A DNA stretch of 64,000 bases. Source: Thysanoteuthis rhombus (Eukaryota; Mollusca; Cephalopoda; Oegopsida; Thysanoteuthidae). Made by a program: the position numbers and the translations under genes. Of this stretch, positions 9,340 through 64,000 are shown in pieces (position 1 is the stretch's first letter; every line of letters starts with the position of its first letter). Location of the stretch: contig OY735207.1 of assembly GCA_963457665.1 (NCBI GenBank), forward strand, positions 59,907,613-59,971,612, in the 5' to 3' direction. The notes under the pieces were generated by a model that ran no database searches, had not been told where the DNA came from, and was given only the letters and a program-made list of their open reading frames with translations.

Positions 9340-9404
<65 letters not shown>

Positions 9405-19686: not shown

Positions 19687-19731
<45 letters not shown>

Positions 19732-20193: not shown

Positions 20194-20224
<31 letters not shown>

Positions 20225-23200
20225 CATATTAAGGATGATGAATATGATGATCCTGATTATAATCAATTTTTAATAACTAGTCTTCCTTTCATCTCATTTG
20301 TTGCTTTATACTGTATCTTAAGACCAATCGAAAATTAATAACAATGCGTCATCCAAAAAATTTGAAATACTCATACACAAGAGAGAGAGAGAGAGGCCAA
20401 ATGGACCACTTTCAGCTAGAAAACTGACACAACACTCTTCCCACTCCTATTCCCTAACATTTGGTTTTGTGCAAGAAAAATCTAAGTTTCTCTATCTTTT
20501 GCTCAACTGATGAATTCAGTATTTTTGACTTACTTGTTTCACACATCCATAGACTGCAGCTTCCATCATATCTGTGATGATAATAACTGGGTCATGAATG
20601 GCATTCTTCACAAAACCCTTGATATAAGATGTCCATTTGGAACTGTAGGCCATCACCTGATGGCGTTGATAGCTTTTATCTCGAGACTCCACCAAACTCT
20701 TGTACTTACACATCAAATCCACTATCTGCCAAGAGAGAAGAAACAGACAATGAGAAAAAAAAGCAAAAATTTAGCCAATAACCATTAGTATAGATAAGAT
20801 AATAGTAAAACATGAGTTGTGATTATTTTCTCAAGATTGAAAAATTATTGTAACATAATCTTCCTACTCTTGATTCCCTCTCCCCTATTTATGTCAGGAC
20901 CAGATTAAAAGAATGAAAAAATCAGAAGAACATACTTAGTAGCAGCAATATTATCATGATTTATCTTCTCATTAGATGAAACATTGTCAACTATTTGTAA
21001 TTTTTAACAAGTATTTTCTTTCATGTTAATTTTAGTTGCTTTTTATCACAGTCTAAAGCAGTGAGTACACAGTGTAGATTAGAAATAAATGATAACCTCT
21101 CTGAGAGTCAAACTCACAACTCTTTTGCCTAAGGAAAACCTGGTAATCTGTTAACTAGCTACTCTTACACATTGAGCTCCAAGAAGCCAAATGTTGGCAG
21201 AAGATCAAATCTAATCTTTAAACCCACCATAATAAAAATAATCAAGATAACATTCCTGACACTAATAGTAAAAATATAATAACAATACGATGCCAAGAAA
21301 TTGGGGAAAAGATGAAGGGTGGGATTAAAGGTTAGATTTGTTTTCCTGCCATTCGTAGGGTTCTCATAGCTCAATTAGTGAGAGCAGCATTCAGAAGTAA
21401 CCAGTTAAAAGTTGGTCTAATTATTTTTGTTATGAAACTATCTATTAGCTTTTCTTTTGTCTGGATGAGCTGAATGCAAAAAAACAAAAGCGATTATTTA
21501 TTTTATTACATAAATCATTTTACTTTTTTACTGAAGATCTCTCAAGATGATTGGAGATAAAATTTTTTGAATGTTTAAATATTTACCTCGTTGTAAAAAT
21601 CTTGCAGCAAAATATCAGCATCATCAATAACCTTGAACATAAAAAAAGGCAAAGATTAAACTATTTTATAAATAGACATGAACAAATACAATCAATTTGG
21701 AAATCTTTGTATCACAAAATCATTACCTCTTTTAGGTCCACATTTACTTACAATTGCATGACCAAAAATATTCGTTCAGTTCATTAATTAAAAATAAAAG
21801 ACAAATTTTTCATTTTCAACATTATTTAACAACATATTTACAGTTTTGTTCCATTATCTTCTATCTTTCAGGCAAAATCATAATTCCACCCTTTCTGAAC
21901 ATTTTATCTTTCTCAGCAAGGAATTGCATTTGGTACCTTTTGTAGTCTTCCAAATATTTTTCAGTAAGACAATTCTGTAAAGACCAGAATAAATTGTAAC
22001 CTTAAAGTGCAATATCTAAAAAAGATTGCAAATGAGTCAAACCTTTTCTAACCAAACTGTATTAATTTTTGCCAGGTCATCAATGAAACATGTGGTCACA
22101 CATTATCCTGATGGAATGTTATACCCTTTCTCGGCATTAATTCAGTTGCTTTTGCCAATTCATGCATTCAAGTGGTCTAATTGGGAGCAATACTTGTTTG
22201 AATTAATTGCTTGGATTACCAGAAGGAACTGATAGTAGGGAACCTTACAAATCAAGCCATAAATACATCACCACCTTACTTGGTTGAAGCCAAGCCTTTG
22301 GTGCAGTTAATGGTATTTCATTTTGCTTGACCCTCAACCTCTTGTGTTTCATATTGTTGTAAAGTATCCACTTTTCATCACTGTCACATCATATTTTTGT
22401 AATGTTCAAATAGCAAGTGGAAATAAAGATTTCTCTTGCTACACATCAAAGAAACTAACATAACCAAGCACGTACAAATGATTTTCAAAATTTCATTTGG
22501 ATATTTTGACTACATTGGCTAGCTCTTGTATAATGTTGATTATTATTAAGTAATATCTTGATTTGAGCCTTATCAACCTCAACTGATCTTTCTCACCATG
22601 GAGCATCTTTCAACAATATATCTCCAGCACTAAACTTTTGTCACAGTAACCTTTCCATAAACAGCACAAATCTTTTTTTTGTGTTTGAGTCAATATTTTT
22701 ACCTTTCTTTAAATGAAAAAGCATATGTGCAAGATGTTGCTTATTTCCTTCCACCTATAATGTTAGAATCAATAAACAAAACATGCTAATTTTGACAAAG
22801 TCTTTTTAAAAAATGCACACTAGTATGATAACAGTTACTATACAATCTAAAGCAATTTTTTGAATGAAGTTAGTTGAGATTCAATACCATTTAATAACAA
22901 ACAGAACAAACTTTTGGACCAACCCAATATATTACAGGACAGGCTGCTGCATGATCAAACTTCATTCCAACTTCTATTCTGACTGAAAATGATTACTGCA
23001 ACTTTTGTATTTCATATATAATAGATGAAAAAAATTGTAAAAATGTATTCATTTGTAAGAATGAATTAAACTTGTGCGTACCCATATGTTGAATTTTCAT
23101 CAATATCTGAGACTTGTCTATTCAGCTCAGTCAGTAAACCTGCTGGCAATCAGTCAGTTGTAAGTTTAAATCACATAAGGGGAATGTGGGTTTAACATAT

Positions 23201-26200
23201 CAGTGAGGATTGTTCTAGTTGTTACAGACAAAAAAAAGGTAACTCCAGACTTTGTTACTGAAGTTTGATAACAATAAATTGGGTACATCTTTTCCACCCA
23301 TTCCCATTAGTAGGTGCTGACAACAGTCAGCCAGAAACTACAAAAGAGAAAATGGGGCCAAAGGATGATGTGAAATACAGGGAACAATGGGGTTAGAAGG
23401 CAGAAAAACCAGCTTATAATGCCAAGACCAACAAAACTCTCACTGAAAATATATGATTCATAAAAATCAATGACATAAAGGAAATGACAGAGATTAAAAT
23501 CAACTCACTAAATGGCACAATCGATCCAGATTTGTGAATTTGGATTCCAACATTCTCTGGAAACAAGGCAAGGTTGCAACAAGAATATGACATCCATTCA
23601 GTAAATTGACCTGAAAAAACAAAACAGGCAGAGTGGAAAATGAAATGAAATATCTACATGAATCTTTACACATAAACTGCATTTTAGGTCTCTCTATTTA
23701 TTTAACGTACAATGAACATTTTCAGGAAATTTTAGAAATTGTTTCGGTGTGGGCATCTTCCTGAGATTAACTAGACACACTGCTAAATTAAGTCTCAAAT
23801 TCATATAAGAAAATTTAAATCTTAACATGAAGGAGAATAAAAACTGATCAAAGTTACCTCCTTTCAAGCTTTAGGTGAATTTCTAAATTCATGTTTCATT
23901 CTGTCATCATGACATTAAGAAGAATTCTACCAATTAGGAGTAGTATCAAGTACCTAGTTAACCCCTGTTGTCAGGAAATTACAATATTTGAATAATATAG
24001 GTTGATTAACCGTAGAAAGTGAGTAAGTAAATGCATTGCTGACACTAAATCTTCAATACAACAAAGTATAAACATAAATTACTGATGATAAAATTTAATT
24101 TAGTAATCTTAAGAAGACATTTGATACTTACTGTCTTTTTGCTTTCTTCTCCTCCTCCATACACTACTTCAACAATGATCTCTCTATTACTTTGACTGAT
24201 ACGTTTGCATTGTTCATAAACGGAGATGGCTTTTTTCCAGGATGGCACAAGAATAAGGACAAAAGGCTGTAAGGAAAATAAAATTATTACAAATGGCAAA
24301 CAATTAGTTTTTCTCATGCACAACTAATTAGACATGTTAATTTGCTATAGTGATTACAGTGTGGAAAGGTGGTAGACATGTAAGATAGTGTTACAAGTGT
24401 TTGAACTGTCTTTTCATTTGTGTGAGCCTGGAATGTTCTAAGATGAGACTAGAGATGTTTACTCACCATGGCATCAGACCAGTGTGAGGTTAATCAACAC
24501 TGATAGGAAAGCAGATAGAAGAACTGCATTTCTGCTTTGTTGGAGCATCCAGAATTTTTGCTTAGAGCTACAATCCAGTGTAACTGCATCTAGAAACCAC
24601 AGACAGCCACACTACCTGGAGATTCTGTACTTCAAGTTGCAGACAGTCATACTGTCCCGATTCTCATTCAAAGGGACGGTAGAACTCTATAGTCAGCCAG
24701 GCATCTAACAACCGCATACTATTCACACTCTATAGTTCAATGACAGGAAAGCCCTACTTTTAGAATACTCCTTCAAAGAGGCGGCAGACCCCTACAGCAA
24801 GTGCGCATTTGCCAGAAGGACAACTCCTGTTAAATGTACATCCTTGGCATCCTACTCTTATTCATCTCAACTGGGTGAACCATAAGATGCTAATCCTTGG
24901 TTTAAAGGGTGGGGTTGGCCCTGGACAAGCTGGCCTCACCTTAAAAATCCCCCACTCAGGCTAGAGGGAAAATCCTTACACAGGCTCTGCTATCTATGGT
25001 TTTACTGCAGTGGCTATTTCTCTAGACAATTTTTGAACATTCATATTTGGGGATACACTAGCTCAGAGGGAGAGAGAAAGTCAAATTCCCACAGACAGGG
25101 GCAGAGCAAGCATCTGGAAAACGACATTGTATTGGTCACATAAATACAAACCAACTTCCTTAGCCTATATACAATACTTTTCATTCCTGTACAGTCTTTT
25201 TGTTTTTGAAATAAACACTTGTAAGTAATCAATATTCTATTTGTCAGTGGTTTTATGAATATTTTAATGTTTATTTACATCATTATGAAAACACTATCTA
25301 ATGATAAATGAACACAGAAATATTAGCAAATTCTCCCATGAATCTTATTTGTTAACTGAAAATTGATCACTATAAACACTTGTTTTGGAATCAATTATTC
25401 ATGTCTTAAAATTGTCTGATGCACAATGTGAAATGATGCGGTTATACAGTTTTATACACTAAAATTATCCTAACAATGATTTTTATAATGTAACAAGTTC
25501 ACCCAGAAAACGACAGCAATATTTGAATAATTTTGCAATTATATTGTACTTAAAAAATATCAAAAACATGTGGCTCCACAAATTCTTGTTTATGTTCAAC
25601 CAGAATAAATCAGATTTTTTACGTATTTGCAAAAAAAAGAGTAAAAGGAGACAACTCAATGATAATCACTTAATAGTTATCTCCTTTGACAAATTTTACA
25701 AACAGAAAATACATGGCGTATCATATATGTAGATAATATTATTAAAAAATCAGAATTAGACTTACGCCATTGCTGAATTTAATATCTGAATAGATATTGT
25801 ACTGACAGAGCGAAGCAAGAATAGGGATAATATAGGCCCAAGTCTTTCCTGAACCTGATGGAGAAATTCCAATGACATTCTTGCCACGAATAACAGGGCC
25901 CCATGAATAAGCTTGGATAGGTTTGGGCTGGATATTCAAGTTTTCAATCAGCTGCAAAAAAATTATAATAATAAAAAGATGAAAACTATTTTCAGATATC
26001 AATTTGTTCGTGGCTTTCATAGACAGATATTTCATATATCGTTTTGTTCTTGAAAAGTAGTTCAAAGCAAATTAGAATTTGACTCCCCCACCTCCTCAAA
26101 TCTATTTTGCTATGATATAGCAGTTTATGGATCCTAAAGTATTCTAAGAACAAACAAACGTTTTAATGTTACCACACTCAAAGTGATAGCACAATCAAGT

Positions 26201-29200
26201 CTTAATTTTGATGAATGAAAATCTGAAAAAAAAAATATATATTTTACAGAAAACCTATCACTCTACACTATTAGGAAAGTACTTATACATATAAGTGTGC
26301 TTAGAAAAGTAACAAAACTATCATAATTGCCAAAGTGGTAAATAAACAAAAACTCAAGATATGCAGTAAAGTTGTTCAGAGATAGATTTCAGTTTAAATA
26401 TTTACAAGAAAAATTTGAAGTAAAACATTCCAAAGACTGAAATGATAATAATAGAGGTATGTATGTATTCAATAGAATTAGGGGAAACTATTCTTACTGA
26501 AGGATACTCTTGGTTCTTTGATAAATGAATTATTAAGATTAAATCACACTAATCCAGTTGATTTCAATTCGAAACTTCAACTTCAGAGTATTTTTGATTT
26601 TTTCATTACCTCACCCAACAAAGTTAGACAGCAGTCATATATATTCACTTATAGAACTCAATAAATTTCAATGACACTTGGACCAAGGGAGAATTTATTG
26701 AATTTTGGGGTAGATTCAGAAATCTTTTTTATTTTTAGTGACAATAGTGTTAGCATAGGTATGTGCTCTCTGAGAGCTTCCTGGTTCTTACTGAATTCTA
26801 ACACAAGGCCAGAAACAATCTGTGTTGATTTTTGTTGTCTATTCAGGTAAGGTAAAGAGTCATGTCTCTTAAGAGACAATCCCTAATGGAGTATGATGGC
26901 CAGTGACAAAGCCCCGGTTTCTGTTGACTGGTGTAATGCAAGTCTACCGAAGGGATACCTCTATTCTAATCACATTGGTTGGAGTGTACTCAATTAGCTA
27001 TCAAGTGCACAGGAAAATTTGATCCAATGAAGAGTTTTCCACACTCTTCCGTCATAATGGGAATCGAACCAGGACCTTGTATATGCGAGGCAAACGTGTT
27101 GACCATTACACTATCCAAGCAGACTTGTCTATTCATGAAGTAGGAGTTAGAACAAAGATTCTACAACTTTCAACAAAGCTTGTTCTTCCTATCCCTTCTT
27201 TTGAATAAAATTTCAAAGAGTTTTAGGATCACGTAGCAGATTTATTTATAAGGATACTTAATGGAACAATTGATATAATACAGACAATGCATTGTTTCAG
27301 AATGTCAGATTACAAAGCAGATGAATAAGGGTGTAGAGTAAGATTCTACAAATGCCATTCATTCCGAGAGATGCAATGAGCTGATATGGAATTAAAAAGT
27401 CATTATAATTGGAATTGGAATCTCATTTGATGATGGAAATATTCAATTTCTGTGACATAATGAATGACAATTCTGTCTTTCATTTGAAAATGAGGAATTG
27501 TCATTATTATGTTCATTGATTTTTTTAGACTAGTGTCCTAATCTGGATTTTTATTGCCACAATTTGGCAACTGAACCCTAGCCTTCTTCGGAAGTCTGTT
27601 GTACTTGGTAACCAACTAGGAGTTTCAAATCGAACCTTTCATTCAATCCATGGGGATAAATTATTCTTATTCCGTTGTCCCTGTACGAAAGGGTGATTTC
27701 TGTATCGGTTAACTCTTCCACTTCTGTTTCAACTTTCAATGAGAAATACATTTACAAAACAAATGATTATGTTGGAAAATCAGTAAAAGAGGTGATGTAA
27801 GAAGAAGATGTAAGAAAAACATTTTACCTGGGAAAGGACTTCAGGCACATTAAAATCTTGCAAGTTGTAAATGGGATTAGGGATTTTCTCAGCCACAAAC
27901 AAGACTGAATCATTCAGTAAGATAGATTCTGTACTTAAAGATTGCTGAAAAAACAAACAAACAATAGAGACATATAAAGCTAGTATTTCAAACTGAAGCT
28001 TCAAAAGTAAAATTATCAACTGATAGAAATTCAACATAGTATTAGAGAGATCAGTTCTGTTTCTTCTATGAGGAAAAAAAAAGTCTAGGAAATGTTATTA
28101 AAAATCATAATAAAATGTTTTTATGATGACAACATTTGAACATTGACACACCATCATCCAATCAAAAAGATTTGAATTATACATACTGTGTGATTGCTTT
28201 CCATTTTTTTGACTTTCTTGGTGACTCCAAGTTTTTCTAAAATTCTGGAATAATACAAGTTACCAAAAATTATATTATGAAGACACTGAAAGCAAGAAAG
28301 GTAAGTAATTTTTCAAATAATTCAAACTGCTAAATCTTTTCATTCTACTAAATAAATCAAACAAAAATATATAGTGGAATTGATAAGCAACAACTAATAA
28401 TTTAATTACATTCTCATGTAATTTGCTTTAGAAATAAACAATACCATACAGATCTGGTTAGTCACTCAATAGAAACCGTCATGTGACCAACATCTTTTGA
28501 CATGCCATGATTGGCAATGATTGATTGAAAAATTGAAAAATCAATGAATAAGTTACTGCTCTCACTTTTAGTTGGCAAGTGATCAGTGAAAATGTTCAAT
28601 TTTTTTAAAAACAAGCATGACACAAAGTGAGGGATCAATCTAGCATAAATTTACACTGCAAATTGTAATCTCCACCATAGCTCTAGATCCATGATATACA
28701 GCCAGTCAAACCAGCTTGAAAACTGAGAGAAACCTATGAAGACAGTTTTGGTGGAAAGTTCCAAACAGATGACTTTCTTCTGTTCATGTAGGCAAAAAAT
28801 AGATTTTTTTCTGAAATAACAAATCTTTCCTAAATTTTAAGAAACAGAAATGACAAAATATGGAAAAGAATATCAAGTCATTTCATAAAACATTCCTTGA
28901 TTACCTCAGAGCAGAATTATTCATTTTTATAGTCATTGTTTGAATATTGAAATATGAATTGGAAACTGTAGGATAGTTGAATGAAGTCTACTCTGACTGA
29001 TGTTGTGATGTCAGCTGTTGCTACTTCTGTTCAGTCATGTGCCATGGGGTATAAATGGTTGGCAGTCAAGTGACTAATATATATGGTTGATTTAGGAATC
29101 AAGTGGAAGTCATTGTGAATAATGCATAGTGTAAGACTGGAGGTATGGTTCAAGTAACCAGAAAATTCTTTGTTACGGTATCAATCTGAAGCAAGTGGTA

Positions 29201-32200
29201 TCCAGCCCACCTTGAGAACAATTCCTATCTTGCTTTCCCACATTATAACATTTGGCGACTAGTAAAACAAAAATTAACCCCAACTGATTTATTTCCATAG
29301 TGATTTTACCTAAAAATTACTCCAGATAAAGTTAGAAATAGTCAAGATGCCATGAGTCACATTTTCAGATAATTATTAACACATCTCTGATTGATAACTA
29401 CATTTTGGAGTCAAGACCTCAATAGATATTGTATTTCATTTATAAAGATCATGTAACTATCATTCTCTGGTTTTACCATGGATTTTGAGATTAAGTCGAA
29501 GATTGATTTGAAAGATATATTTCGAGAGAAAGTCTAAGATTGGCTTCAAAAAATATATGGATTAAAAACAATAAGAAAGTTTAGAGCAAAAGAGAAGAGT
29601 ACAGAGAAGGAATAATATCAAAATGAAGACAAATGATTTAAAATCATCAAAACAATTTACCTTCTGCCCCGAATACAGTCCATTGCACGATCTCTAGCAT
29701 TCAGCGATTTTTCCCCAGAACTAAATGGAAGAAAAAGGACGAACAAAATAATTGTTGTAGAAATCTATACTACAAAATTAATTTAGATTTTAGAATTATG
29801 ATACTGATCAATAGAAATAAGAACTCTTTTTTCTCAAGCTAACATTGAGCCTCAGCCCCCCTCTCTAACATAGAGCTAAACTTTTACAATTGCATCAAAA
29901 TCTATGTTGATCATTTCCTTTCATATCTCAATAGTAAGAGTTTCATTTTTCTTTACAGTTTCAACAACAGAAACTTTCGGAAATTTTTTTAAATCACAAA
30001 AAACAAAAGCAAAAAAAAAAGATTTATTTTGATAAAAGCATGAAAAAAACTTTGAAATGCACTTACAAGACAGAAAAACAGCTTTCACATAAGCCATGAA
30101 AATAACTAACATTTCTTACTTTCTTTCTCATAATCGTATAGTGAACAGATAGATTTTCATCATGTTTACTGTTATTATGAACCGTGCGTTTTCTTTACCT
30201 AGCTTCTCTTGAAGTTGAAAAATAATGCTCACTAAGTTTAAAAACTCTTGAATATATGAGATGTACTACAAATGGTCAACATTGCGAACATGCTTAAAAA
30301 ATCAATATACAACAGGTTAGTAAGAGAACATGTACATAATTTTATAGAAGAACGTACATCAGTTCTTTTCTTTCAGAATTACAGTAAAGAATCGGTTCTG
30401 TACCTCAAGCTAGTTTCATGTCTTACCTGGTCAAAATATATAAACTATAAAATTTAAGATATCAGGATGATAATCTTACTGTATACTGTATTTTCTGGTG
30501 TTGAGGGAGCCCTAAAATTAACCTTTGACTTTTAGGATGGATGATAAAATTTTGAGACTTATTTCAGGAAAAAAAAAATTACACTTTCATCCTATAATGT
30601 GGGAATGTGAATATATACACACGTTAAAAAACTGACTTTGTATTACATTTTCCACAATATGGGAATGAAAATAAATAACTCCTACGTCAAAACATCAGAT
30701 TTTTTTCCTTTTGACAAAATATTTTATGATATATAATCTGTACTGTACTAAGGAGTACTTTTGTTTTGTATATAAATTCAGTATCACATTTTTCCTCTTG
30801 TACAGATTGCATTTTCTATAAAACATGGTACTTACCTAGTACGATCTTTTGTAGTTTGGTCTGGAGACATCCGACTTGAAAGAGATACTGGGGAGGTGTT
30901 GGGTTTTATATCACCTGGGGAGGAAATAGGTTGCACAATGCCTGCAGAAGTAATTTGTGTGTTATCATCAGAGGTGGATGCTGAAATGGACTTTGCATTT
31001 CCATTTGGAATAGTGTGTGGTTCGTCAGAGAAAGGATCATTGTTTTCATATAGATCAAAGGTACACAGGTCAGAAGACACGGTATTATCTAATTTATCAT
31101 CTACCGTTTCAGTGGGTAACGTTGAGTTAACTGATTCTGGAAAAACCACTTTATCATCATTCATTGAAGGTGAATGAGGCTTGGGTTGATGACTGGTATC
31201 AGATACTGAAGGTGCTGGAGGTAGAATAGAGTCTGGATTGTTATCAGGTGTAACCTCAACTTCAGCATTATCACTTGATGTCACAGATCTATTGCAGGTA
31301 TCATGCACAGAAGATGCCATGGGCAGAATGGAGTCTGGATCATCATCAGGTGTAAGGTTGACTTGAACATTATCACTTGATGTCACTGATTCAGACTCCT
31401 TATCTTTAATGTCAATGGATAACAATGAAGAAGAAATGTTGCAGTCATCATCTGTTATGGTTTCTGATGATGGAGAGACAAGTTGCATTTTCCGATCTGA
31501 AGTAGCTTTTACAGATGAAGCTTCAGATTCTGTTACGTTATCTGTACCAGTAACTGAAGACTGAGAGGCAGACAATATGTCTTCATTCACATTTACAGAC
31601 AGAGATGCGAATTTAGTTTCATCAGCGGCACCTGTTGAATCAGGCAGTGAGGTAGATATGGAATCTATGTTGAGATCTTCAGCAGGTGATACCAATTCAG
31701 GAATATCAGAAATAGCTTTTACATCTGTTGAATCTGACATTGAAATAGATGTGGATTCTATCTTGGGATCTTCAGCTGGTGATGCCAATTCAAAATCAGA
31801 GTCGGTACTCTCATCTATCAGAGCTGGCATGGGCATGTTGACATCTGGAAAGGTTAAAGATGTAGATTCTACATCGTCCTCTAATTTAGGCATCTCTGCA
31901 TAATTATTAGTTTTAGATGGCACTGTTGCAGAGGGATATTCTATATCTTCTTTTGGTAAAGCTAAGTCTAATATAGAGGTAGATTCCGTGGGGTCCTCAC
32001 AGATGATTGGTATGTCCTTAATATCAACTGGCGTACTGGATGCCAATTCCTTACTATCTGCTACAGATGACAGAGCTATGGAAACAGATCTTGTCTCAAT
32101 ATCAGACCCACTTGCAATGTCTACAGATGAAAAACAATCCTTACTTCCATCTGCTGGTGCAACTGATTTCAAGTATTCAATGTGATTATTTTTTCCAGAT

Positions 32201-35200
32201 TCATCAGAAGACAGAACACCAACTTCTTCATCTGAACTTGGAGACTTTGTAGAAAGGATCAGACTTTCATTGTTTCTGGCAGTCATTTCCACGGAAGGGT
32301 TTTCCTCTTGATTTTCAGATACAAACGGCGACAAGATATCTTTTGTCTCATCTTCTTGACAATCAGCAGTATCTGAAGCTGCAATACAATCTTTGTAATG
32401 AGGTTCTGTGTTGGTGGAAATGCACTGAGACTTGGCATCGTAGTTTTCATCCACTGTTGATAATTCAGAAGATGGATTGTCCTTTTCTTCCTTCAAGCTC
32501 TCGGGTATAAATGTATCGATGCCCTTTTCATCCACTGCTGAACGGTCTTGTTCCAAGTCTTGAACCGCAGCCAGGATTTCAAGGTGGTTTTCACTGCAAG
32601 GAGATAAAGAGAAAGTTGCTTTTTTCAAAAATCAAAGAAAGAAAGAAAAAAAAGGGCAAAAGGAATTCAAAGAAGAAAAACTATTTTTTCAAGCTCATAA
32701 TGAGAGAGGAAACATTTTAAAAAATAATATTGGATTCATAAGATAAATCTTTTCTAATCACATGAAAAGGGTTAGATTCAAGCTTCAGAAAAAGCATAAA
32801 TCCACCCTTCCCTGCACTTTGCCATATCTTATTGTTGTCTTATCACATGTATGTCATGATGGGAAACAATGAAGAGAGAGCTGAGGAGAGAAATTCTGAA
32901 AGTTTTCCCCAGAGTTATCAATACTTACACCCCCCCCCTGCAATGTTCAATTAAAAACCGAATATATCATACAGAGAAAAGAGTGATTGTTAACTCAATT
33001 ATCAACTGAATCCATGACCCTTTGATTCGCTGATGGTTATCATAAATATACAACAGGCTACTACTGATACTATAAGAGTGACAGTTAAGTAGTTTAATGA
33101 GAGGGTAAAGGGACTGATGGCTGTCACTGATACTACAAGTCTGACAGATATGGCTTTTATTATTTATATGATGATGATTTCATCGACATTAAACTTGGGA
33201 AATTAATTTTTATCATCAACCACAAGCTGAACCATTTTTTGTCTTTCTTTCACATAAAAAAATTGTCCAATTCACGTGATACAATATTTCACTAGTTTTA
33301 TACATGCAGAAAATTATACATAATCAAATATCACTGTATGACTTTTGATGTGTTTGAAAATTGTGAGAAATCCTTATCAATCAGACTATTTTACGCTCTG
33401 TGAAGTTACCACCATTTTAAATATCTATCTTGAATTAAATATGTCTCATATCCAGCCACATACAGAACGATTTTTTCAAAAACCTGATAAAGTTCCAAAT
33501 TCCAGATACTCATATGGCTAGTTGAAGATTCAAACTTCTGATTAAATCAAATAACTCAAAGATAATTGTTTGAATATTAATGACAAGATCATAATAGACA
33601 ACTTTAAGATGTTTTTCTACCAGAATTGCTGAGGATCAGAGTGCAGTGTCTGTATGCTCATTGAAAAGTGTTACCCATACAAAAAAAAAATAAATAAAAT
33701 ACTATATATGGATACACATTGCATTTCATATGTGGATGGATCTATAGAAATTGCATCTTAATAAATTACAAAACATTCAGTTTTGCTTTTCTCTCTCTGA
33801 TTGAACATCAAGAAGAGTGTAAGCAAAACATAGTTCATAATTCTTGACATCTATATAACAGGAAAAGTCTGATACTATTCATTTGTTTTGATGTCCAAGT
33901 AGCCAAAATGGTGTTGTGTAGCGAAGACGTATTGAGGGTCCCCCAAAATGCACTAATCTGAAGAATGATATTAGCATGGAATCTGTGGCAATATGGCAAA
34001 TTGATAAATACACACACATAAAAATTTAAAAAAAAGAAGGTAGACAGCATTTATTAGTTACCTCACTAGACAAATCAGTGCTATCAATATTATAACAACT
34101 GATTTGTCAAGGGAGATAGACTGCACAAGGTTTTTTTTTAAATTATTTTTGAAAATTTGCCAAAAATGAAAAAAATTCAAGATTAATTCTAGTTGCATCA
34201 GATTGCAATAATTTTCTTTCAAAGGGTGATCCAACAGGTCAAAAGATTGTCTAGTTTTCACCTAAAGTCATCAGTGACTCACTTTTAAGTCTTAAAAGTC
34301 ACAAGGAATTAAATTTCCAAGTTTTAAAAACTTTGGGTTTTTTTTTTCTATTCTTAAGGTATTTATCATTCATTTATTAAAAAGAAGAGTTCTGTCAACT
34401 TGTCGTGCAACTATCATAGGAAGTAAAATTACTTTTAAGCTAATTATTTGATTATCCTATCATGACTGACATAGTGACAGCATTTCAATATTCTACTCAT
34501 ATTTATAGATATTTGTTTGAGAAATGCAGCTTTGTTACAAAACCACATGTATAGAGTGCCAAGTGAAAACAGAATCCACTCAGATTGGATTGCAAGATCA
34601 GCATCACTCAAAAACAGGTAGCATACAAGATTAATTGTTTTCGCTCTTTATTAGAAAAAAAGTCTGCATATACTAAGATATTGAAGTTATTTTGTATTTT
34701 TGGAGCTGAAAGAAAATCCTATTTAAAAGCAATAAATGTTAAATTTATTTGTCAAAGATATGATCATTATTACTAATAATGATAAAAGCCAACTTTTATT
34801 CCTTGTTGAAAGAATTTGGGATTCTAGGCAAAAAAGAAAAAGAAAGAAAAATGCTAAACAAATATTATTAGTTTCTAAAACAAAACTTTACCCACTAATG
34901 TCTTGGTGAACTCTGTTTTGAGCCCTTAGAATGAAGCAAAACTCTCATAGGTGATCTTTATTGTTAGGTACAAGTTAATAAAAAAATTCAAGCAAAAAAA
35001 ACTTCAATTTGGTCAACAGAACGGGTGTCCTTCTTCAGAATGATGATACAAGCTCACACTCAGTAAAATAAACTCAGATGATCAAATCATTAGGTTGGGA
35101 TATCATACTGCATCCTTCTAAGTCAATGCATTTAGTACTTCAAGATTTCCTTCCACTGACTTTACAGCTACTCCACCACTCCCCTACATGGCTTTAATTT

Positions 35201-38200
35201 TCTGTAACAAACTAAATAATTCAGCCAATAACAGAAAAATTGATGATTTGCAATGTCTAACCACAAAATTGTATTGGTAAGGTTTATGATATTCATACAT
35301 GATGATCAATTCAGCTGATAACATATTTTAGGGATACAAGTAAGGTAAAGATATGTGTCTTTGTAAACATCAGTAATTTATATTGTAATTATTCCAAATT
35401 AATATCCTTTCTAAATAATTTGTACAATTGCAGAAAAAAAATATTTTAAAAATGAACATCAAATTTGATTACTGTTCCAGTGACAATCTCATTTGTAGAA
35501 CACTAAGGGAAAACCTAACTCACAACGTCTCTCAAAAAGAGAATGCTAACTGCTGCATTATGAATACTCTTAAATGGCTCTTTTCTTTTGGTATATAATT
35601 GGGTAGTAAATTTGTCTGAAATGATTGATCAAGCAAACAAGATGAAGGGAATGTCAGTTAAAACCTGAAATAGATGGGGGAAAAAATGCCCGGATATTTG
35701 AAAGGAAAAAAAAGTTTGAAATCATAGGAAAATACATTTTGTTCACATACTAGGCATTCATTTTTTTTTAAATTGCAAACAAGACTAAGTGCTTACTTGG
35801 CTATATATTATTTTCTTTTTTCAAATTAAAAATTAAGAATGTATAAAGAGAACTTGTGGTGCAACTATTCCACAAATTAGACTGATACAAAAACAAAATC
35901 AACAAACTAAACAGTACTTTTCATTCAAGTTACTCTTGCATTTTTTTTGCAATTATATGGCACATGCACATACAGAACTGTGCAAGATTTTCCAACATTT
36001 ACTATTTATTAAACGTCGTATACATTATCAGTCTGGAATTATGCCCCGTTCAATAGTATCATTGCCCCTTTTTTAGGTTTATATGCCCTCATAAAATTTT
36101 TGAGTCTGCAGTTCTGAAGAAAGCGGAAAATATAACATGTTCAAAAATGATTTCCAACCACCTTATCGATTTGGTTTCCTAGTGGACAGTTCAATCAAAA
36201 ATATTCAAGTTGTTTTTTTCATCATTTTTTATTGCAACAACACTAATGTAGAAAAATCCAACTTCACACTAGAACATGACAAAAACAGTGAAGTTTAATA
36301 AAAGGAAATTCTGTTTTGGGGATAAATAAGAGAAGAAAAAAGAGTAAAAAGTTTATTAAAAGAGATGATAGCTTGAATAGTGCCAGTTGTTGGATGACAG
36401 ATATTAGAATGGATGAAGATGTTCTTTGCCGTGGAGCTCTACATCATAGATCATATAGACCACAGCTGAGTCTGGACAAACATTGAACAAACGTGGACAG
36501 GGAAGCACATCAGAAAAATCCAGTCTTGAAGAAGAGAGGGAACTCAGTCATAAAGAATGGCTTCTTATACCTGCGAAGATGAAGGACACCTCCCTTTTCA
36601 GGTGTATCAAAATAGTAATCAAAGCCAAAGGTATCCACAAAAAATATTAATCATGTATGAATAGGGGAAAAAGTGTATCTTTATAAGTTAGCATCTAGCT
36701 TGGCTTAAAGTAACCAAACAAAAACCTTTTACAAGTTCGTTTTTGAACATGTCACATTTTCGTCCTCTATCAGGTTGAAAAGCTTCAAAGTCTGCCAAAC
36801 CTAATAATGTTTGGAATCAACACATAAAGGGACATTAGTATCAGTCAGTGTAAAAGGCAATATTCCAGACGACTACAAACCACTATCTTTTGTATGAAAA
36901 TGATCCAAATTCTGTGTTAGCCTGTGAATTTGTTACCATAACACAGTAAAAATAGATTATTTTAGCACAATTTCTATTAGAGCAATACCATGAATTGCTC
37001 TTACTTGGAAAATTTCCAGCCCATTCATGTCACCAGTTTCTGAGTAATTGAGCACAAATTTAAGGGAACTGCCCAAGGGAGATAACTCTAGGTATTGTAA
37101 ATGCTAATTAAATTCTAGAGAAGAATAAGCAAATAATTATTACATGAATACTATACATCGAAAGTGACCCGATATCGAGCTTGAAGACAGCTTTTAACCA
37201 AGTAAAAAAAAAAAAGAGTAGGTATTAAAGTCATGTATGATTAAAATTCAGGCTTAAAACAGAGGACACTTTTGTCGCTAAAAATTGATTGATCATACAA
37301 TTCAGAAGGGGAAATAATCTACACCTTTGCATTTAGGTCAACCTAAAGATACCGAAAAGAGTTTTGGTCTGTCAATGATAGTTTTAGACGAAAAATGTCC
37401 ATTATAAATCCTCAATTCAGAGCTTCACTTCAAGTTAATTTTCTTCCAAGCCAAACACAGAAGGATTTTATTATTTCTCGTGGAACAATACACACTCAAA
37501 ACAGATATTATCGGTATTGTTGATCAAACTCTATAGTATTGACATTTTTGCCAAAAACATTTCCTCATAAGGCATACTCATTTTTGGATTGCAACACATT
37601 CATATTTGGGGCAACAGAGTTTCAACATAGCTAGTATCAGGAATTATCTTAATATTTTGATTCTGTAATGCTCCAATAGAAATGATAAAATCCTGCAGTA
37701 TTTGGTTTAGAAGAAAATTTAAAAGGTAGGGTGTGCTCATTTATGGGCATTATTGAACATATTTTAATAAAAAACAGAATAAAGAGATTAGTCACAATTA
37801 GTGTCAAATCTTATAAAAGCCCTTGTCACTTTTTATTTGATTAAAGGTTTATTCTATCACTCTCAAGCAAACCAAAGGGAGTATGGCAAAACTCTTGTCT
37901 CTGTGGTTGAATATGATGAACCACATAACTATCTATATGTCAACGTATTTTCAACTACATCATTATTACTGATTCAGCTGTCTACATTGAATAGAAAATA
38001 AATATAAGCATCTTGGATTTTTCTTGAACAAAACTTGTTTCCCCACATATCATAGAATGAAAAAATTTCAACTTTTTACCTAATTCCGTAGCCTTATTAT
38101 CTTAAATTCATAAAAATAGAATATATGAAAAGTTGTAGAAAAATCGACAGAATAAATTTCATTTGATGTGATTTTCTTTTTTTTTACTTCGGTCAACCAA

Positions 38201-41200
38201 GTTGGAGAGGTATAGGTATTTCCATTTGTCTGTCCACACAATATCTCCGAAAGTACACAATGGATTTCAATGAAATTTTGCGGAAGGTTGGGCAACGGGG
38301 TAAGGAAGAGATGGTTAAATGTTGGGTTGGATCCAAAAATTTCTTTCTGATTGAAAGATGCTTTTCTGGTTTCTTTCCATTCATTTATGTATATGTTCAT
38401 GACCATCCACATATTTCCAAAAGTTAAGAATGAATTCAGTAGGAGAGGGATACAATAGGCTATGACAGAACTGATTAAATTTTAGAATGGATCCATGTAC
38501 AATTAATCCCCTTGACAATAGCATTGATGGGGGTATGTGATCCCTAAGTGCTTTCTAGTTTTGTTTGCAATAAATACATTAATACTAAAATATATTTGTA
38601 TGATTTATCTATATATAAACAATACCATCATTTTTGATCGGTGCTATACCAGTACATTGGCAAACTTTGAACAAAACACTGACAACTTATGAGAAGGGTG
38701 TCTCAGTTAGGAAAAAATATTGCTGGACTCATTTCACATATTCTGGGTAGAATTTTTGCTGAAAACAAATTTTATAAGATATCAATACTGCACCTAAAAG
38801 AATTATTGTGACACAAAGTAAATAAAACCGGTTTAGGACATTCATTTTGGAACAAAATGCATATATGCATATGCAATGTCCCAGAATGAATCCACCTAAT
38901 GGGTTTCTGTCTACTCCTGTCAGACAATTGCAATGTAAATACTGTATCTGAATGTATATAAGATGCAAATATTAAAAAACAAAACAAATTGTACAAATAT
39001 TACAATGCATGGTATTATATGGGCTGGTATTATAGGAAGCTGTCTGACAAAGTTTTGAAATCGACATGCAGGGCTTAGATGAGTTGCAATGAGCACTAGT
39101 CTTCTGGATACCATTTTAAATCATGCATCTTATATACTGGCCAAGACAGTATCTACATTTTGGGGAAAAAAAAAAAAAAATTTACATTTTAGGCAAACTC
39201 AGATCTTCCTGTTTGCTGGTTATAATGGGCCTTTCCACTTTATCTTCAAAAATGGGAATCTGCTCGCTGGATGCTGCATCAGGTTCAGGTGATCTTACTT
39301 GAGATTTGAAATCACAGCTGGAGGTTTCTTCAGGATTCAAAGGAGAAACTGGAGACGTAGGATCGTGAAGGCATTCGGAATCAGAAAATTTTCGTGATGG
39401 AATTATTGGTGACATTTTAGAATCATCAGACGTAACAACATCTCTCTCCTGGTTTTCTAACTTTTCAGACTTGTTTTTGAAAATCTCACATGAATTTTTC
39501 TCTGGGTGAGAACTGATGACGTCACACGAAGATGGTTCATCATCTCCAGTTTCAGACAGGTCACTGTCATCATTGCTGGTAAACGGTAGACATTTTTTTG
39601 AGAAAAAAGATCCGGAGGAATTACTGTTTTCACATTCATTTAGCTTGTTCAGAGGTAAAGTGTTGAGACTTTGCAGCATTCGGATTGTATTACCAGGTGA
39701 GGATGAAAGAAGCTTTGAAGATACAGAACGATTTAAAATCTCAACAGCAGAAGTAGACAATCCAGATGAGGTAAGAACTGTTAATTTAGAAGATGCATTA
39801 CTTTGACAGCTCTCCGAGTTTTCAACTTCAGAAGAAATATTCCTTTTAGGACTGCAGCAACTCCTGGTAGTATTACTAGTATTGTCATTTTTTTCATTAG
39901 TGACTATGTTACAATCAACAGTTGCTTCAGCTTTTTCAATAAGAGTCTTATTAGTTATAAAGAAGGATTCGTTAGAGCTATCGCTGTTACTCGTAGAAGA
40001 TAAAATTTTAGAGGAACATGAAGGTTTTCTCTTACTATATTTGCTTTTGGCATAGGCTGAATCCGAGGGTGGCACATTTATTTTTTGAGACATTGATGCC
40101 CTATCGCAATGAAAATCCATCATACTGCTGGGTCTGCCATCATCATCTGCCTGAATCCCACTAAAAGGCACATCTGACTCTGTTTCATAACAATCAGTGT
40201 TGTTATTTGAATTACAGTCTGTAACTGGTAAAGGCTGTTGGGAAAAAAGTGACTGATTGACAACAGGTTGATGTTCACAGCAACTCGACCTTATTTCTGA
40301 ATCACATTTATCATTAAGTACAGATTTACTCTGATGCTTTTCTGTCTCCCTTGTTCTCTTACAGTGAGGAACAGGAAAACTATTTTCTGTTTGGATATTT
40401 TTGTCATCTGCTCCCCTCTTGGCAGATTTATTTATAGAACAGTCATTTGCATCTGAAACCCCTAAGTGTGGTACCAAATCTCGATTATTGCTCACCAGTT
40501 TCTTATGGTAAGCAAGAAAATTGCTTAGAGCACTTTCAGTTCTTATGTTGGATTCCTTATCAGGGGATGTTTGTGAGTTTTTAACCGAAAAATCTTTTGA
40601 AGTTTTGGTATGATTTGTTGATATCACAGCTGAAATGGAATTTTTTCCCCTAGTCACTTCAGAATTATAAAACATTTCACTATCTTCAGTCATATAAGAG
40701 CTGTCAGATTCCAAAATGGGCATAGGCAAATCAATATTACAGCTTTTAGACTCGGCTTGCAAGGCATCATTTTCTACATTAAGTAGCTGGTAACTTACAG
40801 AATGTGATCTTGATTTTTGTCTGAATTTCTGAGATGAGGAATTATCATTATGATATGCTGATTTACTTGGACTAACTCTCTGCTTATGCACCGATTTACT
40901 TGGACTGATGTTCTCACATGATTTCAATTTTGAAACTTTGGGCTTATGCACTGATTTACTTTGACTAATGTCCCCATGTGATTTTAATGAGGAAACTTTG
41001 GGTTCCACAGGCTGTCTTAACCTTCTACTATACCTGCTATACGTACCATCGCACGAAGGGTGTGCAGAAAGTGAGGGATTGGATTCTTTTTTCATTTTGT
41101 TATTTTGTTGAAGTCTTTTATGGTAAGAAAGCAACTGTTCCAAAGCACTGAAATTTGATGAAGCTTTCTGATTGGTAGATTCTTTGGAAGGAATATCTGA

Positions 41201-44200
41201 TGAATAATGGATTTCTCTGCATCTTTTAGTGACAAAGTTATTGGTTGGGCTACCTGAGGAGGATGGACTATCAGAATCATCAGAAGAATTGATCTGAGGA
41301 ATGTCAGATATACTTGTCATGTCAACATGAACAGGATAATTGTTTATAGTAAGCTTTCTATGAAAGCCATTCACTGACACTGCCGCATTGACTGAAGAAT
41401 TGTTGACTGGATACTCAAGCCGTTTTGGTTTTTGAGATAATCTCTTATTTATGCATTTTGTCTGGAACACATCTTGCAGAATATTGTTTGTTTCTTCATC
41501 TATAAAAAAGATAAAAAAATAAAATTAAAAACTGTATTACCTGGTGAAGTAAAGACATTGTAACAGTGATATAGATCTTTGAACAACTTTTCGCTGAGTT
41601 CAAATTGAACAAAAAACAGAATTCATATATTTTCCATTAAGTTTTGAAATATTAAATTCACAACAAATTTAGTATACATAACCTTTCAACTAAGTTAGAA
41701 CAAGATAGCTCGTAAAATAAGCTCTCATAGTAAGATTCACAATATGAAACTCATGTGGATAGCTCGCCATTTTAGCGGAGGTTCTTTCTTTTTTTTCTTA
41801 CTGCTTCTCTGTTCTATACTAAGTCCATGCCTTGCATGAAGAAGAATGTGCAGAAGTTTGCTTGCAGTAGGTAGACAAAAAACTCCTTTTTCGTTATCAT
41901 TTAAATTTGTGTTGAAGCCAACTTTTCATTGAAAAAAAAAAGATAAAAATGTACTCAATCAATGTGCTTTAATGGCGTGTGTTCATTATTATGTTCACTA
42001 TTTCATTCATTTTGTATCATTTATGTTCTGTAACATGCAGATTCCTTTTTATTTCTCTAATACTCTCTTCTGTTTATAATAAAAGGTTCATATTTTTACA
42101 GAATATCTGTCTTTGTATTTCTTTTGATGTATTCTGTTATATTTGACAAAAATACAAACAGTACTAAAATTAGAGGCATACGTTTCTCTACAAATAACAC
42201 TTCATGTTTGGTAAGTACAATGTCATCTCTACTTCAAAACACCGAAGAAAACAAAACTGAAGTACAGCTATGCATCCCTCTATGCCTCTAAAATCTACAC
42301 CATCATAAATATCACTGACATTCAATAATTGAGCGATTATGTATCACAAGGAGAGAAAAACAAAGCCAGTGCCGAAGCCTAATTCATTATCCTTATTTTC
42401 TTACAACAACTGAATAAAGCTGAATATTATTGGTCTAAAGTAGATTCATCACAAAATTATTTGTTTCTCAATTTTTAGAATGCATTTTAATTACGCTTTA
42501 AACGATGTTTTAATACTTACCAAAGCTTTTGTTGATATCAGGATCTTTGATGGCATAACCCTTATTGACCATTTGATCATTGAGAGACAAGATTTCATCA
42601 TTGCCAGAAAACCTGAGATATATCACTGCAAGTAACACATTTTCTTCTCCTTTGGATTTTATCACAGCCTGAATGGCACTTGCATCTGGAATAGGAATAA
42701 GTCACAAACACTATAACGGCAAATCCCTTTCTTTTATTTTTGATTTAAAAATATTTTTTGCAACAACTATGCCACAATTCTTTTTTTCAAATTAGGTAGA
42801 AAGTTATTTTTTATCAGAATCTACATTTAGGATGGTTTTGAAAAGTTACTGATCATAATTTCAACTTCTAGCACTCTTTTTCAAGGGTGCCAAGATCTTG
42901 TGCACTTAGTAACTTTGAAAGTATGTAAATTGCAGGTCTGACTCAAATTGACATAACACAATCACAAAATTAAAAAATAATTGTTTGACAATCAGAGCTG
43001 CCTGTAGTGGTGGGACAAACTTTTTGTTTGACAAAGTTACCAACAGAATTCAAAAGGTCAAACTGGTTTCGAATTACAAATTATCTTTAGCATAGAAGCT
43101 AAGAACTGAATCATATAAAACTCATTTTTAGTGAAAAGGGACTGAATACAAGTAAGCAATTGCTGATTAACTCTTATGACGCCATCTTTACATTTTGGGA
43201 AAAACTGGGGGAAAACAAAAAAAAAAAAATCACCATGAATCCATTTCAACTTTTCTGCTAACATTGATAATATATGAGAAAATCAAGTGAAACACCGTTT
43301 CAGTGTGTCAGGCATATTTAGCTAAGAAATGAAATGCTTGTCAGCAGTTTCAAGACAAGATAGAATTTGGTTTCCATTTGCGGTTGGAATCATACATCAA
43401 AATTTTTGAATGCCTTTTGCAGAATAAGGTTGAGATGAATCATTTGTCATTCATTTTTGCTTCTTTCATCTCATTTTAGTTCTTTTTTTAGCAATATTCA
43501 GGTCATTTCTATCTTTTATGATTGTTAAGTACCTACTTAATATGGACATCACCTTATTGATTAGGCCATGAAGACTCAACAGCAGGCAAAATTTAAATTT
43601 AGTCATATAGCTACATTTTTCCTCAGCCCATTTTCCCAAGCCATACTGTTTGTTTACTACTTTGTAGCAATAAATATCTTGAGTTGTTTGAATTTCTTAG
43701 ATGAAACAATAGAAATAAGGTGAAAGAAAAACAAAAAAGTGATTATAACAACAATGCTTCACCTAAGAACTTTGGACAACTTAAGACTATTATTGCAGTT
43801 GTTTCCAACAATTTTTATTTAGTATTTCAAATTGCAAACAGGTCCCACATAGGATAACATCAATGGCCGTCAATGTAGGATCAAGCTTCAGTCCAATTTC
43901 CATACTTAATTTTGATCTCACAACCAAGTCTCACAACTCAATTCTTCATGGCTTTACCCAGTACAAGTAGAAGACTTGCCCCCCCCCCCGCTCAAATATA
44001 CAAGGGAGATAACCCAACAAATTAAGATCACTTCTTGGGTTATAAGCTAATCTAACCACATAATGAGCAAACAGGCAAATGGCCCCTTAGTGCCAATCCA
44101 TATATAAATGACCCTATCATTTCTGACGGGTATATTCTAGTGAATGAATGAATACATACAAAACAGAAACATCATACACAGAAAGAAGCATAAGAATAGA

Positions 44201-46976
44201 AAATTCTTACAGTTAATCATCTTTTTAATGTGAATAGCAGCTGACTTATCCCATTTCTTACAGGGTCTGAAAAATAGAAGACCAAATAAATGATTCATAA
44301 AACCAGGTTTTAACCAAGTTCCAGAAAGTAAGGCAAAACATTAGCTTCAACATAAAATATGAAATAAAAAGATTTCAGTTTTTTTTTTCAGAGATCTATG
44401 GCTTAGACTTTCTTGTGTCCAATTTATTGCATCTGACAAGTATTTTAAATCTTGAATTAAACCTCATAATCATTACAGAACAGTAAATAAAGTTAAGCAC
44501 ACATATATTATCATATGCATTATAGCTTCATTCTATCTAATTCCTGACCACTGACAATCCTTTTTGCTCTCTCTTGATTCTCAATACATGATATACAAAT
44601 TGAATGCCACAACTTACTCAGGAATATAGTTGCTAAATCCAGTGATTGATCACAAAATCTTAATGAATCATTAACAATGTATTTCTAGAGTGAAATCATT
44701 TCTATACATGCTTTTAGGATTTGCTGTTTCACTATATACAATAATCAGAGTGAATAAAAATTCAGGTGCATTTGTTAGTCTTACCTACATAACACAGATT
44801 ACATAATCAGCCAATACGTGTATAATATTGACACTAACTAGGCATCTAAATGGAATGCATCCCTGAGGTAAAACTTGCAAGAGTGCATAAAACTGTGAAA
44901 GCCTATTAATGATACCAGTACGTACCTTTGGGAAGCTGTCAGTGTGGGATCAAGAACAAGGGAAAGTGGCTGAAGTCCATACAAAGCAAATACTTTTACT
45001 TGGAATGGAATAGTGAGAAATTTTTCAGGAATTTTCTTCACTCTACAAGAAACAGAAAAATTCATACCAACAAATTCAATGAAATTGAGAACAAGCATAA
45101 AAATGAGCGAGTTATGAATCTATTTAAAAACCTAATAAGCATTTTTTTTTAATCAAATTCCTAATCTGTTTGTTATTTTAAAGAACTTGTATAAATTGTA
45201 CATCTCTTTACAAATGTTGGTAAATCTTCCATGACTGATGTTCTATGAATACTTGATTATTTAATATACATGCTTGAACTATACAAGCAAATAATGCAGC
45301 TTAATAATATCAAAGTAAAATTTGAAAAACACAGCACAAAACAGACTCACTTTACAATTTGAACCATTTGATTTTCACCGGTGTCCAAAAAGAAGCAGCT
45401 GCAAAAAAAAAAAAAAAATGGCAATGTCATTTCACTTAAACAAATCCATTATAGAAATATTATACAGATACAGTAAGAAAAAAATGTTTAAACCTTAGTT
45501 ACAAATGTTACCAAGTCTTGAATTCATGGACTATTTGTATTGACAGTGAAACTTTTCAATAAATAGAAATAGAAATAATAGAGCTTTTCTGTGAATTGAC
45601 AAAAAAACATTTTTATAATTCACTTGATGGTCAAAGGGGGGATAATATCAATCAAGAATTATTTCTCTAAATTCATTTAAAAAAATTGAATTTAAGAGTT
45701 AAAAGCCATTTGTTTATAATTCATTTATTGCATGTTAACTTTTAAAGAAGAATCTGTTCATAGCTTTGATTTCTCTCTCAATCACCTAAGGTAATTTACA
45801 AGATCAAAATTACAAATCATGATAGACCAAATCAAGATCGGTTTAAGAGTTAACTCTTCTTGACTAGACAGAATAGATCCTCAGTAAACATAACACTTGT
45901 TAGATAACTCATCTCTGTACTATCTGCAACATCAAGAAGGTGTTGGAGAAAGCACATCTAACAAGCATTGAATCCATGATACTGAAACACAGGCACTAAT
46001 GGGCAGGGCATACTTCAAGGATGGAGATATTGTGTGTGCTAGAGGCCGCCTTCTTTCTTAAACTTAGTGCTGGAAAGCACAATCAATAGGAGCCCTAGAA
46101 GCATTTTAAAGACTAGCCTTCACTTGAAGTTACCAGGAAGCATGTAATAGGAAAGACTGCATCAATGCAGCCAGTCTCAAATCTAAAACTGAGACGTACA
46201 GCTGTTGAGGACAAGCAAAGCGTCTTTCTGATACAATCACCCCAGGGATTTCCTTGTCCTAAGTGAGGAAAGGTCTGTGCTATGTGGAATGGGTTCCACA
46301 TTCACCTTTGAGCCAGCAGAAAATAAACAAACCATCCTCTTCAGGCCATTATAAGCAAGTAAATCTTATCGGATAGAGTTGCTAGTCCCATAATCAAGCC
46401 GTAGTTTTTTTCTGTCAGAGTAATCTTCCTTTAAATCAACTGTTCTGAAGTGGATTCATGCCTTTCCCAAAACGCATTAGAGCCAAATGAGCAGTCTAAA
46501 GGTAAAGAATTTGTAAAATGAAGGTAAAACAAAAATTAATTCTTACTCTGCTTTGGCACCACTCAGTGTAGTCAGGATTTCCCGGACTCTTACTCTGTGC
46601 CATCTGTTATTGTTACTACTGAGGGCAGCACAAATCTGAAGAAAAAGAAAATTTTATCTTAGTATACAGATTTACCAAGTGAGAACAGTGAGCTATTCAG
46701 GCAAAAATTCTTACCTTTTACACACAGAGCAGTTTCAATTAACTTGAAAATAATCAAATAGGAATTATTTTGCAATACACAATTACTTCAAAGTCTTTTT
46801 TCAGATAGTTGCAATATAAAAAGTAAAACAAATCAAGTTAACATGGCTGGACAGATTTTGATCAGTTAAGGTTTATAGACAAATACATAGAATTATAGAA
46901 ATTTGAAGTTTCAGGAAATAAGACTGATGCAAAATTAAGCCATCAAAATCTCTCTCCCTCTCTATATATATATACT

Positions 46977-47008
<32 letters not shown>

Positions 47009-63361: not shown

Positions 63362-63437
<76 letters not shown>

Positions 63438-63700: not shown

Positions 63701-63844
63701 GATATTAAACCAAGAAAGGATAGAATATAACAATAATAAAATAAAGGAAAAAAACTTTATCTCAGAGATCAACTTTCCGATCAATATACTGAACATACTT
63801 GCCTAAAATTTGATCCCATGTAAAATTGCCCCCTTGCTTTTTGC

Positions 63845-63990: not shown

Positions 63991-64000
63991 TATGCCATGT

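Follow-up and report, generated by a model that had tools for sequence, protein, structure and literature searches.

A TDRD12-like gene of Thysanoteuthis rhombus with an exceptional, probably disordered linker between its Tudor and helicase modules

In this work we analyzed a stretch of 64,000 nucleotides (nt) from the cephalopod Thysanoteuthis rhombus (assembly GCA_963457665.1, contig OY735207.1), called the window below; unless another locus is named, all coordinates are window positions. The window contains, on its minus strand, a TDRD12-like gene with an exceptional linker. In our best explanation, two giant exons, here named exon B and exon C, are coding exons of this single-copy gene and insert approximately 1,356 probably disordered residues between an extended Tudor domain (Tudor 1) and the DEAD-box core. 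TDRD12 is a germline protein of the defence against transposons. According to the cited papers, mice without TDRD12 have almost no MIWI2-bound PIWI-interacting RNAs (piRNAs) left and are stalled in meiosis (PMC8317503), and zebrafish without Tdrd12 are masculinised and infertile (PMC5485951). How far the Tudor and helicase modules can be uncoupled would be shown by a lineage in which more than 1,300 disordered residues separate them. The strongest new lead is a motif repeated in exon B, which may be helical and may capture a partner protein, and which offers a concrete bait for a candidate partner.

Two giant open exons in a TDRD12-like gene

Exon B (41499-39186, 2314 nt) and exon C (32593-30836, 1758 nt) have exactly the coordinates and sizes given in an earlier sequence-only reading of the window, and as that reading also stated, they stay open: the stop-to-stop frames of 780 and 599 codons are far beyond chance. 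When the whole window was simulated 200 times with a first-order Markov model, the longest frame per simulation was 130 codons in the median and never exceeded 211, and the third-longest real frame in the window has 148 codons. The coding frame of exon B has no stop in 770 codons, while the two other forward frames have 33 and 112 stops and the reverse frames 30, 48, and 52; for exon C the corresponding numbers are no stop in 585 codons, 29 and 77 in the forward frames, and 14, 29, and 41 in the reverse frames. The resulting linker of 770 + 1 + 585 = 1,356 residues agrees with the roughly 1360 first proposed, and tryptophan is indeed missing from both exons. Neither exon has a match in Pfam or PDB, and a search of the 2.73 Gb genome, with 31 candidates scored, returned two matches, both at this locus, and no second copy. 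Eight Tudor loci taken for comparison also hold giant open frames, with up to 1,119 codons within the fetched pieces (several of which overlap one frame). These frames contain tryptophan, and disorder in them extends over at most 118 consecutive positions, versus 204 and 180 in the linker of exons B and C.

The identity of the gene was assessed with an exon-chain program and with Pfam. The program uses generic splice matrices and a coding score trained partly on exons B and C themselves; it accepts exons permissively, and outside support is lacking for many of the small ones. The Pfam scan was made on six hand-joined exon pieces, which contain gaps, and matches were taken to E 0.1. Three pieces matched Tudor (the first below cut-off), one matched DEAD and Helicase_C, and two, consisting of exons B and C, matched nothing. 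The order on one strand is Tudor with an SNase-like half, exon B, exon C, DEAD, Helicase_C, Tudor, and Tudor, and both exons are thus situated between the extended-Tudor-like region and the helicase, where the sequence-only reading had placed them. TDRD12 requires a DEAD-box and Helicase_C core between Tudor domains and a Tudor domain C-terminal to the helicase. Both were found, with DEAD (PF00270, E 5.7e-24) and Helicase_C (PF00271, E 6.5e-05) over cut-off, followed by Tudor (PF00567, E 4.4e-13) and a further Tudor (E 1.9e-26). Among proteins of known structure, 116 distinct DEAD-box sequences match the helicase pieces at E ≤0.001. HA2, which marks TDRD9/Spindle-E in a published table (PMC12147562), is not among the Pfam matches of the scanned pieces. 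When the region from the helicase to Tudor 2 was used as query against the whole genome, 12 of 13 matches were the TDRD12-like gene itself. The remaining match (G000:C39:30009643-30010131) is DEAD-helicase-like and 26% identical to the helicase of the gene; it lies inside an open frame of 779 residues, which suggests either a retrocopy or a helicase encoded by a single giant exon.

At the N-terminal side, the piece containing exon A and 44266-44211 matched TUDOR with E 6.7e-4 (20.2 bits, curated cut-off 23) and SNase with E 0.0041 (18 bits, curated cut-off 21). Both scores are below cut-off; the order of the two halves is the right one for an extended Tudor domain. Over residues 3-123 of 128, the same piece aligned weakly (E 0.047-0.075) with the TDRKH extended Tudor in PDB, and no 5' Tudor exons were recognised upstream of 45.4 kb. 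The phases of the exons can match, as had been claimed: exon A leaves in phase 1 and exon B enters in 1, exon B leaves in 2 and exon C enters in 2, and exon C leaves in 2, which is the phase of an acceptor at 28065. We infer that both giant exons are spliced into one mRNA. Collectively, these data support the assignment of the gene as TDRD12-like and the position of the linker.

Probable disorder and a repeated, predicted helical motif in the linker

The 770 residues of exon B contain 19.5% serine and 8.4% asparagine, with 95 K/R against 99 D/E residues and a net charge of -4. In the 585 residues of exon C, serine amounts to 17.4% and aspartate to 12.0%, and 35 K/R against 119 D/E residues give a net charge of -84. 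The description of the second half as acidic and Ser/Asp-rich was therefore accurate, whereas the description of the first half as basic was not. Only residues ~101-250 of exon B are basic (+10 to +12 per 100 residues), and acidity starts inside this exon, with -8 to -11 per 100 from residue 601. The charge difference between the two exons is real (reached in 0 of 2000 permutations), but it is one of neutral versus acidic, not of basic versus acidic.

The linker is probably disordered, as judged from its composition and its lack of matches and, weakly, from AlphaFold2, and this probable disorder is among the supported features of the gene. TOP-IDP values exceed 0.1 at 89% of the positions in exon B and 98% in exon C, compared with 25% in the helicase pieces, and the Uversky boundary puts both exons on the disordered side. 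With AlphaFold2 the predicted local distance difference test (pLDDT) score was below 50 for 742 of 770 residues in exon B and 561 of 585 in exon C (means 35.9 and 37.2); the run was made on single sequences without an alignment, which often gives poor models and counts as weak evidence. In exon C, helices were predicted with low confidence at 3-14 and 423-433.

A 17-residue motif, SALxxxLxYHKxLxxNN, occurs in two copies in exon B, 205 residues apart and with the rare residues Y and H kept. When 17-residue stretches more than 40 residues apart were compared with a rarity-weighted score, the similarity of this pair was reached by none of 200 shuffles of exon B and none of 200 shuffles of the whole linker. 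AlphaFold2 predicted only two helices of at least four residues in exon B, 117-134 and 323-335, and these are the two motif copies. A possible third, degenerate copy lies closer to the start of the linker (Table 1). When the three motif regions were aligned with MAFFT, the third copy fell out of register; with shorter pieces an alignment was obtained in which A, H, L, N, and N are invariant.

The exons also carry five families of direct repeats (94 nt at a spacing of 102, 71 nt at 93, 24 nt at 189, 60 nt at 60, and 38 nt at 615), and in all five the spacing is a multiple of 3. Substitutions were counted in four families, excluding the 24-nt family at 189, with 86 codons pooled. The rates of non-synonymous (dN) and synonymous (dS) substitution were 0.226 and 0.421, giving a dN/dS of ~0.54. 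Between the repeats 30 residue changes were seen against 35.5 expected, and of 3000 neutral simulations, 792 stayed free of stops and 32 of these gave this number or fewer. We take the repeats to be under weak constraint.

Our overall reading, on which we are evenly divided, is that the linker would serve as a long tether carrying short docking sites. The two, perhaps three, copies of the motif in exon B may catch one partner protein multivalently, the basic patch beside them could touch RNA, and the acidic Ser/Asp-rich arm that follows exon B may be phosphorylated. Such a tether would let Tudor 1 and the helicase act on separate parts of a piRNA-processing complex. A more specific proposal is that the linker makes TDRD12 a multivalent hub, in which SALxxxLxYHKxLxxNN would be a new kind of docking helix, present in two to three copies on a tether of more than 1,300 residues and holding several molecules of one partner from the piRNA pathway; this we put forward tentatively, as something possible rather than expected.

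Alternatives to a tether with docking sites

A number of observations weigh against one continuous linker carrying docking motifs, and some of those that concern splicing point to an alternative with split transcripts, where exon B would end at an in-frame stop and give a short protein of Tudor 1 plus disordered residues, and exon C would either be included optionally, as a cassette, in the helicase form or be part of another transcript. The donor of exon B is weak (AAAT/GTAAAT); its 2.8 bits are the lowest among the 18 exons picked (next 3.3), donors in exons of the chain outside these 18 going down to 1.7 bits, and an in-frame TAA follows directly after it. Furthermore, the exon chain gives no direct join of B and C. 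It inserts 37068-37005 and 34924-34896 between them, and 29720-29661 and 28244-28187 between exon C and the acceptor at 27944. None of these four small exons has outside support and we take them as noise, although the chain does not prove a direct B-C junction. The acceptor at 27944, which the chain has chosen, is in phase 0 and leads to a stop when read directly from exon C, and the join to the helicase therefore needs either the in-phase acceptor at 28065, where the exon adds a hydrophobic stretch without a match, or an undetected small exon. Since the length of exon B is 1 and that of exon C is 0 modulo 3, skipping of exon B or of both exons shifts the frame, whereas exon C (1758 nt, phase 2-2) can be skipped alone without a frameshift; this phase arithmetic predicts that exon C, rather than exon B, can be an optional cassette. 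Against a division into separate transcripts, the splice sites of exon C are strong (12.6 and 10.4 bits), its acceptor is in phase with the donor of exon B, and it contains no Pfam domain of its own. In addition, AATAAA and ATTAAA are absent from the 986 nt after the stop of exon B, where about two would be expected from the ~2 per kb of the window; this argument is weak, and seven occur within 3 kb. We consider split transcripts improbable. That a transposon or pseudogene landed in an intron and gave rise to the open frames is hardly credible to us: the genome is large and the window contains repeats, but the multiple copies and the transposon domain that would mark such an element were both missing from our searches, the two frames are in phase with the flanking exons, and we have rejected this explanation.

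The linker could also be real and belong to TDRD12, and yet be mostly a passive spacer, a disordered region that has grown by in-frame duplication under weak constraint and has little specific function. This we regard as somewhat unlikely, and a number of results speak for it. The duplications have a high dN, and the signal of purifying selection in the pooled repeats is weak and absent in one of the four pairs (C_D2, where dN equals dS). The synonymous codon use of exon B equals the background: it correlates at 0.89-0.92 with intron triplets, compared with 0.50 with ~300 helicase codons and 0.59 with exon C, and as it cannot separate exon B from intron triplets, codon usage was dropped as uninformative evidence of coding. 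Exons B and C are devoid of domains, and plain BLOSUM self-comparison does not single out the motif pair (score 55, against a mean of 49 and a maximum of 65 in 60 shuffles), which we ascribe to the biased composition of exon B; the information-weighted score given above was applied after this comparison. Further results weigh against the docking reading. Chou-Fasman ranking leaves the motif outside its top eight. The third copy is only suggestive, its score of 31 being reached by 21 of 2000 shuffles and an unrelated frame among the six of the window scoring 30, and AlphaFold2 predicts no helix there. The DNA pattern of the motif core occurs at 12 places in the genome versus 16 for a reversed control; only the two in the TDRD12-like gene lie in a long open frame, the other ten being in frames of 12-84 codons, and this genome-wide search found no partner or second protein. 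What argues against a purely passive spacer is that two copies so far apart have retained SAL...L.YHK.L..NN together with its Y and H, and that they coincide with the only predicted helices of at least four residues in exon B. The sequence-only reading had suggested instead that adjacent disordered blocks of opposite charge could drive condensation, for example in nuage. The long disorder and the acidity of exon C fit with this idea, as does a segregation of charge above that of shuffles in exon B (reached by 3 of 300) and in the whole linker (12 of 300). In contrast, the charge of exon C is less segregated than in most of its shuffles, 293 of 300 of which reach its value, and no neighbouring blocks with opposite net charges were found, with -4 over 770 residues in exon B and -84 over 585 in exon C. 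There are three RG/GR dipeptides in exon B and none in exon C, no FG, and 50 aromatic residues in the 1,356, and the Yb bodies of the fly are stated to require the Hel-C domain and RNA binding (PMC6958439). With an exon B that is neutral and not basic, the charge-based idea loses its basis; we have rejected it as the leading reading and think it very improbable. Condensation is not specially favoured by these data, and the repeated helical motif of exon B is better supported.

Known relatives and neighbouring features

In human TDRD12, whose sequence we use as a lead only, roughly 185-230 residues presumably separate Tudor 1 from the helicase, and the claim that vertebrate TDRD12 has only a short linker here was accordingly loose. 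Compared with this human sequence, again as a lead only, the pieces of the T. rhombus gene show in order 27.7% identity for Tudor 1, 29.0% for the helicase, 27.6% for the Cys/His cluster and Tudor 2, and 38.1% for the tail.

Zebrafish Tdrd12 is described with 1362 residues, two Tudor domains, a DEXDc domain, and an alpha-crystallin domain (PMC5485951). The layout of Tudor and helicase is shared with the T. rhombus gene, which has Tudor, DEAD, Helicase_C, and Tudor; a p23-like piece lies on the same strand ~11 kb beyond the window. The full length of the zebrafish protein is about that of the linker alone, and in T. rhombus a third Tudor domain (4569-6110), possibly of the same gene, follows that is missing from the zebrafish domain list; a table in another source lists TDRD12 with a single Tudor of its class (PMC12147562). 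In the TDRD12 group of Drosophila, BoYb, SoYb, and Yb likewise combine a DEAD box with an extended Tudor (PMC12014135, PMC6958439, PMC12147562). BoYb consists of two halves joined by a flexible region (PMC12014135), and the linker would be a longer form of the flexible segment that this relative already has. BoYb itself has 1059 residues in total. Yb differs by its N-terminal Hel-C self-association domain (PMC6958439). The excerpts of these Yb-group papers contain no mention of a repeated helical motif, and no giant TDRD12 linker is described in the listed titles and abstract openings of the literature on TDRD12, the Yb group, and mollusc or cephalopod piRNA. The gene also resembles the TDRD5/TDRD7 type in encoding a putative germline Tudor-family protein with a long, probably disordered region. 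In the sea urchin, TDRD7 without its central disordered region is reduced in granule formation and compromised in recruitment to Vasa, whereas TDRD12, unlike TDRD7, has no granular character in embryos (PMC12925329). A further difference is that no LOTUS match was found in the TDRD12-like pieces scanned.

Table 1 Features of the TDRD12-like gene and its linker in the window.
Feature	Position	Strand	Basis or remark
Tudor 1 exon (CFFLDTGENQMVQIV)	45351..45398	-	exon chain; Pfam TUDOR below curated cut-off; splice sites
Tudor 1 exon (IPEKFLTIPFQVKVFALYGLQ)	44926..45042	-	exon chain; Pfam TUDOR below curated cut-off; splice sites
Extended-Tudor exon (PCKKWDKSAAIHIKKMIN)	44211..44266	-	exon chain; SNase-like half, below cut-off; splice sites
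Exon A, last exon of extended Tudor 1 (SNase-like half), phase 1 out	42521..42685	-	profile and PDB matches; splice sites
Exon B, 2314 nt, ~771 residues of probably disordered linker	39186..41499	-	enters in phase 1, leaves in 2; weak donor
Possible third, degenerate motif copy NAAVSVNGFHRKLTINN, linker residues 37-53	41339..41389	-	score 31
Motif copy SALEQLLSYHKRLQQNN, linker residues 117-133	41099..41149	-	shuffles; predicted helix 117-134, pLDDT 73 in block 121-130
Tandem 60-nt (20-residue) duplication in basic patch of exon B	40874..40993	-	
Motif copy SALSNFLAYHKKLVSNN, linker residues 322-338	40484..40534	-	shuffles; low-confidence helix 323-335, pLDDT 49 in block 321-330
Exon C, 1758 nt, ~585 residues of acidic Ser/Asp-rich, probably disordered linker	30836..32593	-	symmetric phase 2-2
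71-nt duplication, 93-nt spacing, exon C	31629..31792	-	
94-nt duplication, 102-nt spacing, exon C	31195..31390	-	
Exon leading into helicase	27828..28065	-	acceptors 27944 (exon chain, phase 0) and 28065 (in phase with exon C)
DEAD-box exons 25951-25766 (motif I SGSGKT), 24266-24132, 23610-23509	23509..25951	-	exon chain; PF00270
Rest of helicase: DDAD exon 21631-21587, Helicase_C exons to 18468	18468..21631	-	exon chain; PF00271
Cys/His cluster CINLKAFGKC-RNKHHCNDRHC, two exons, zinc-finger-like by eye	14957..16169	-	exon chain
Second Tudor domain exons	10955..14127	-	exon chain; PF00567, 4.4e-13
Third Tudor domain exons, possibly same gene	4569..6110	-	exon chain; PF00567, 1.9e-26

The Cys/His cluster listed in Table 1 sits between the helicase and Tudor 2 and reads by eye as C-x8-C-x5-C-x3-H-C; the Pfam scan gave no zinc-finger match for it. 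The third Tudor domain may belong to the TDRD12-like gene or begin another Tudor gene. Outside the window, ~11-13 kb left of its edge and also on the minus strand (L010 7225-9261, contig C10), there are exons for a p23/Sba1-like CS domain followed by an acidic tail (KYWPRLLQDKYNK ... LYVDFEKIEDSDDSGSDEF). The joined piece matched Sba1 with E 0.0014 and At3g03773 with E 0.0025, and it could be the C-terminal domain of the TDRD12-like gene or a neighbouring p23-type gene. Pfam found no CS domain at or near the window, the three CS matches of the genome being on contigs C3, C18, and C32. Between the third Tudor and the p23-like piece, on the same strand (L009), lies a series of exons that look helical (HPEKLIAENVPGYFLKLLSYTHDPDMFSSVVDYVKLLM and others). 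Their only match, to ENTH, is sub-threshold (17.3 bits against a cut-off of 24, E 0.0049), and they may form a helical-repeat region within the TDRD12-like gene. Finally, microsatellites reading IYIYIY or VCVCVC are found in the window at 9237-9419, 46876-47052, 63332-63541, and elsewhere, and a short tandem repeat at its right edge (63765-64000) reads FGGKIQFWGKNPILGEKSN in several frames.

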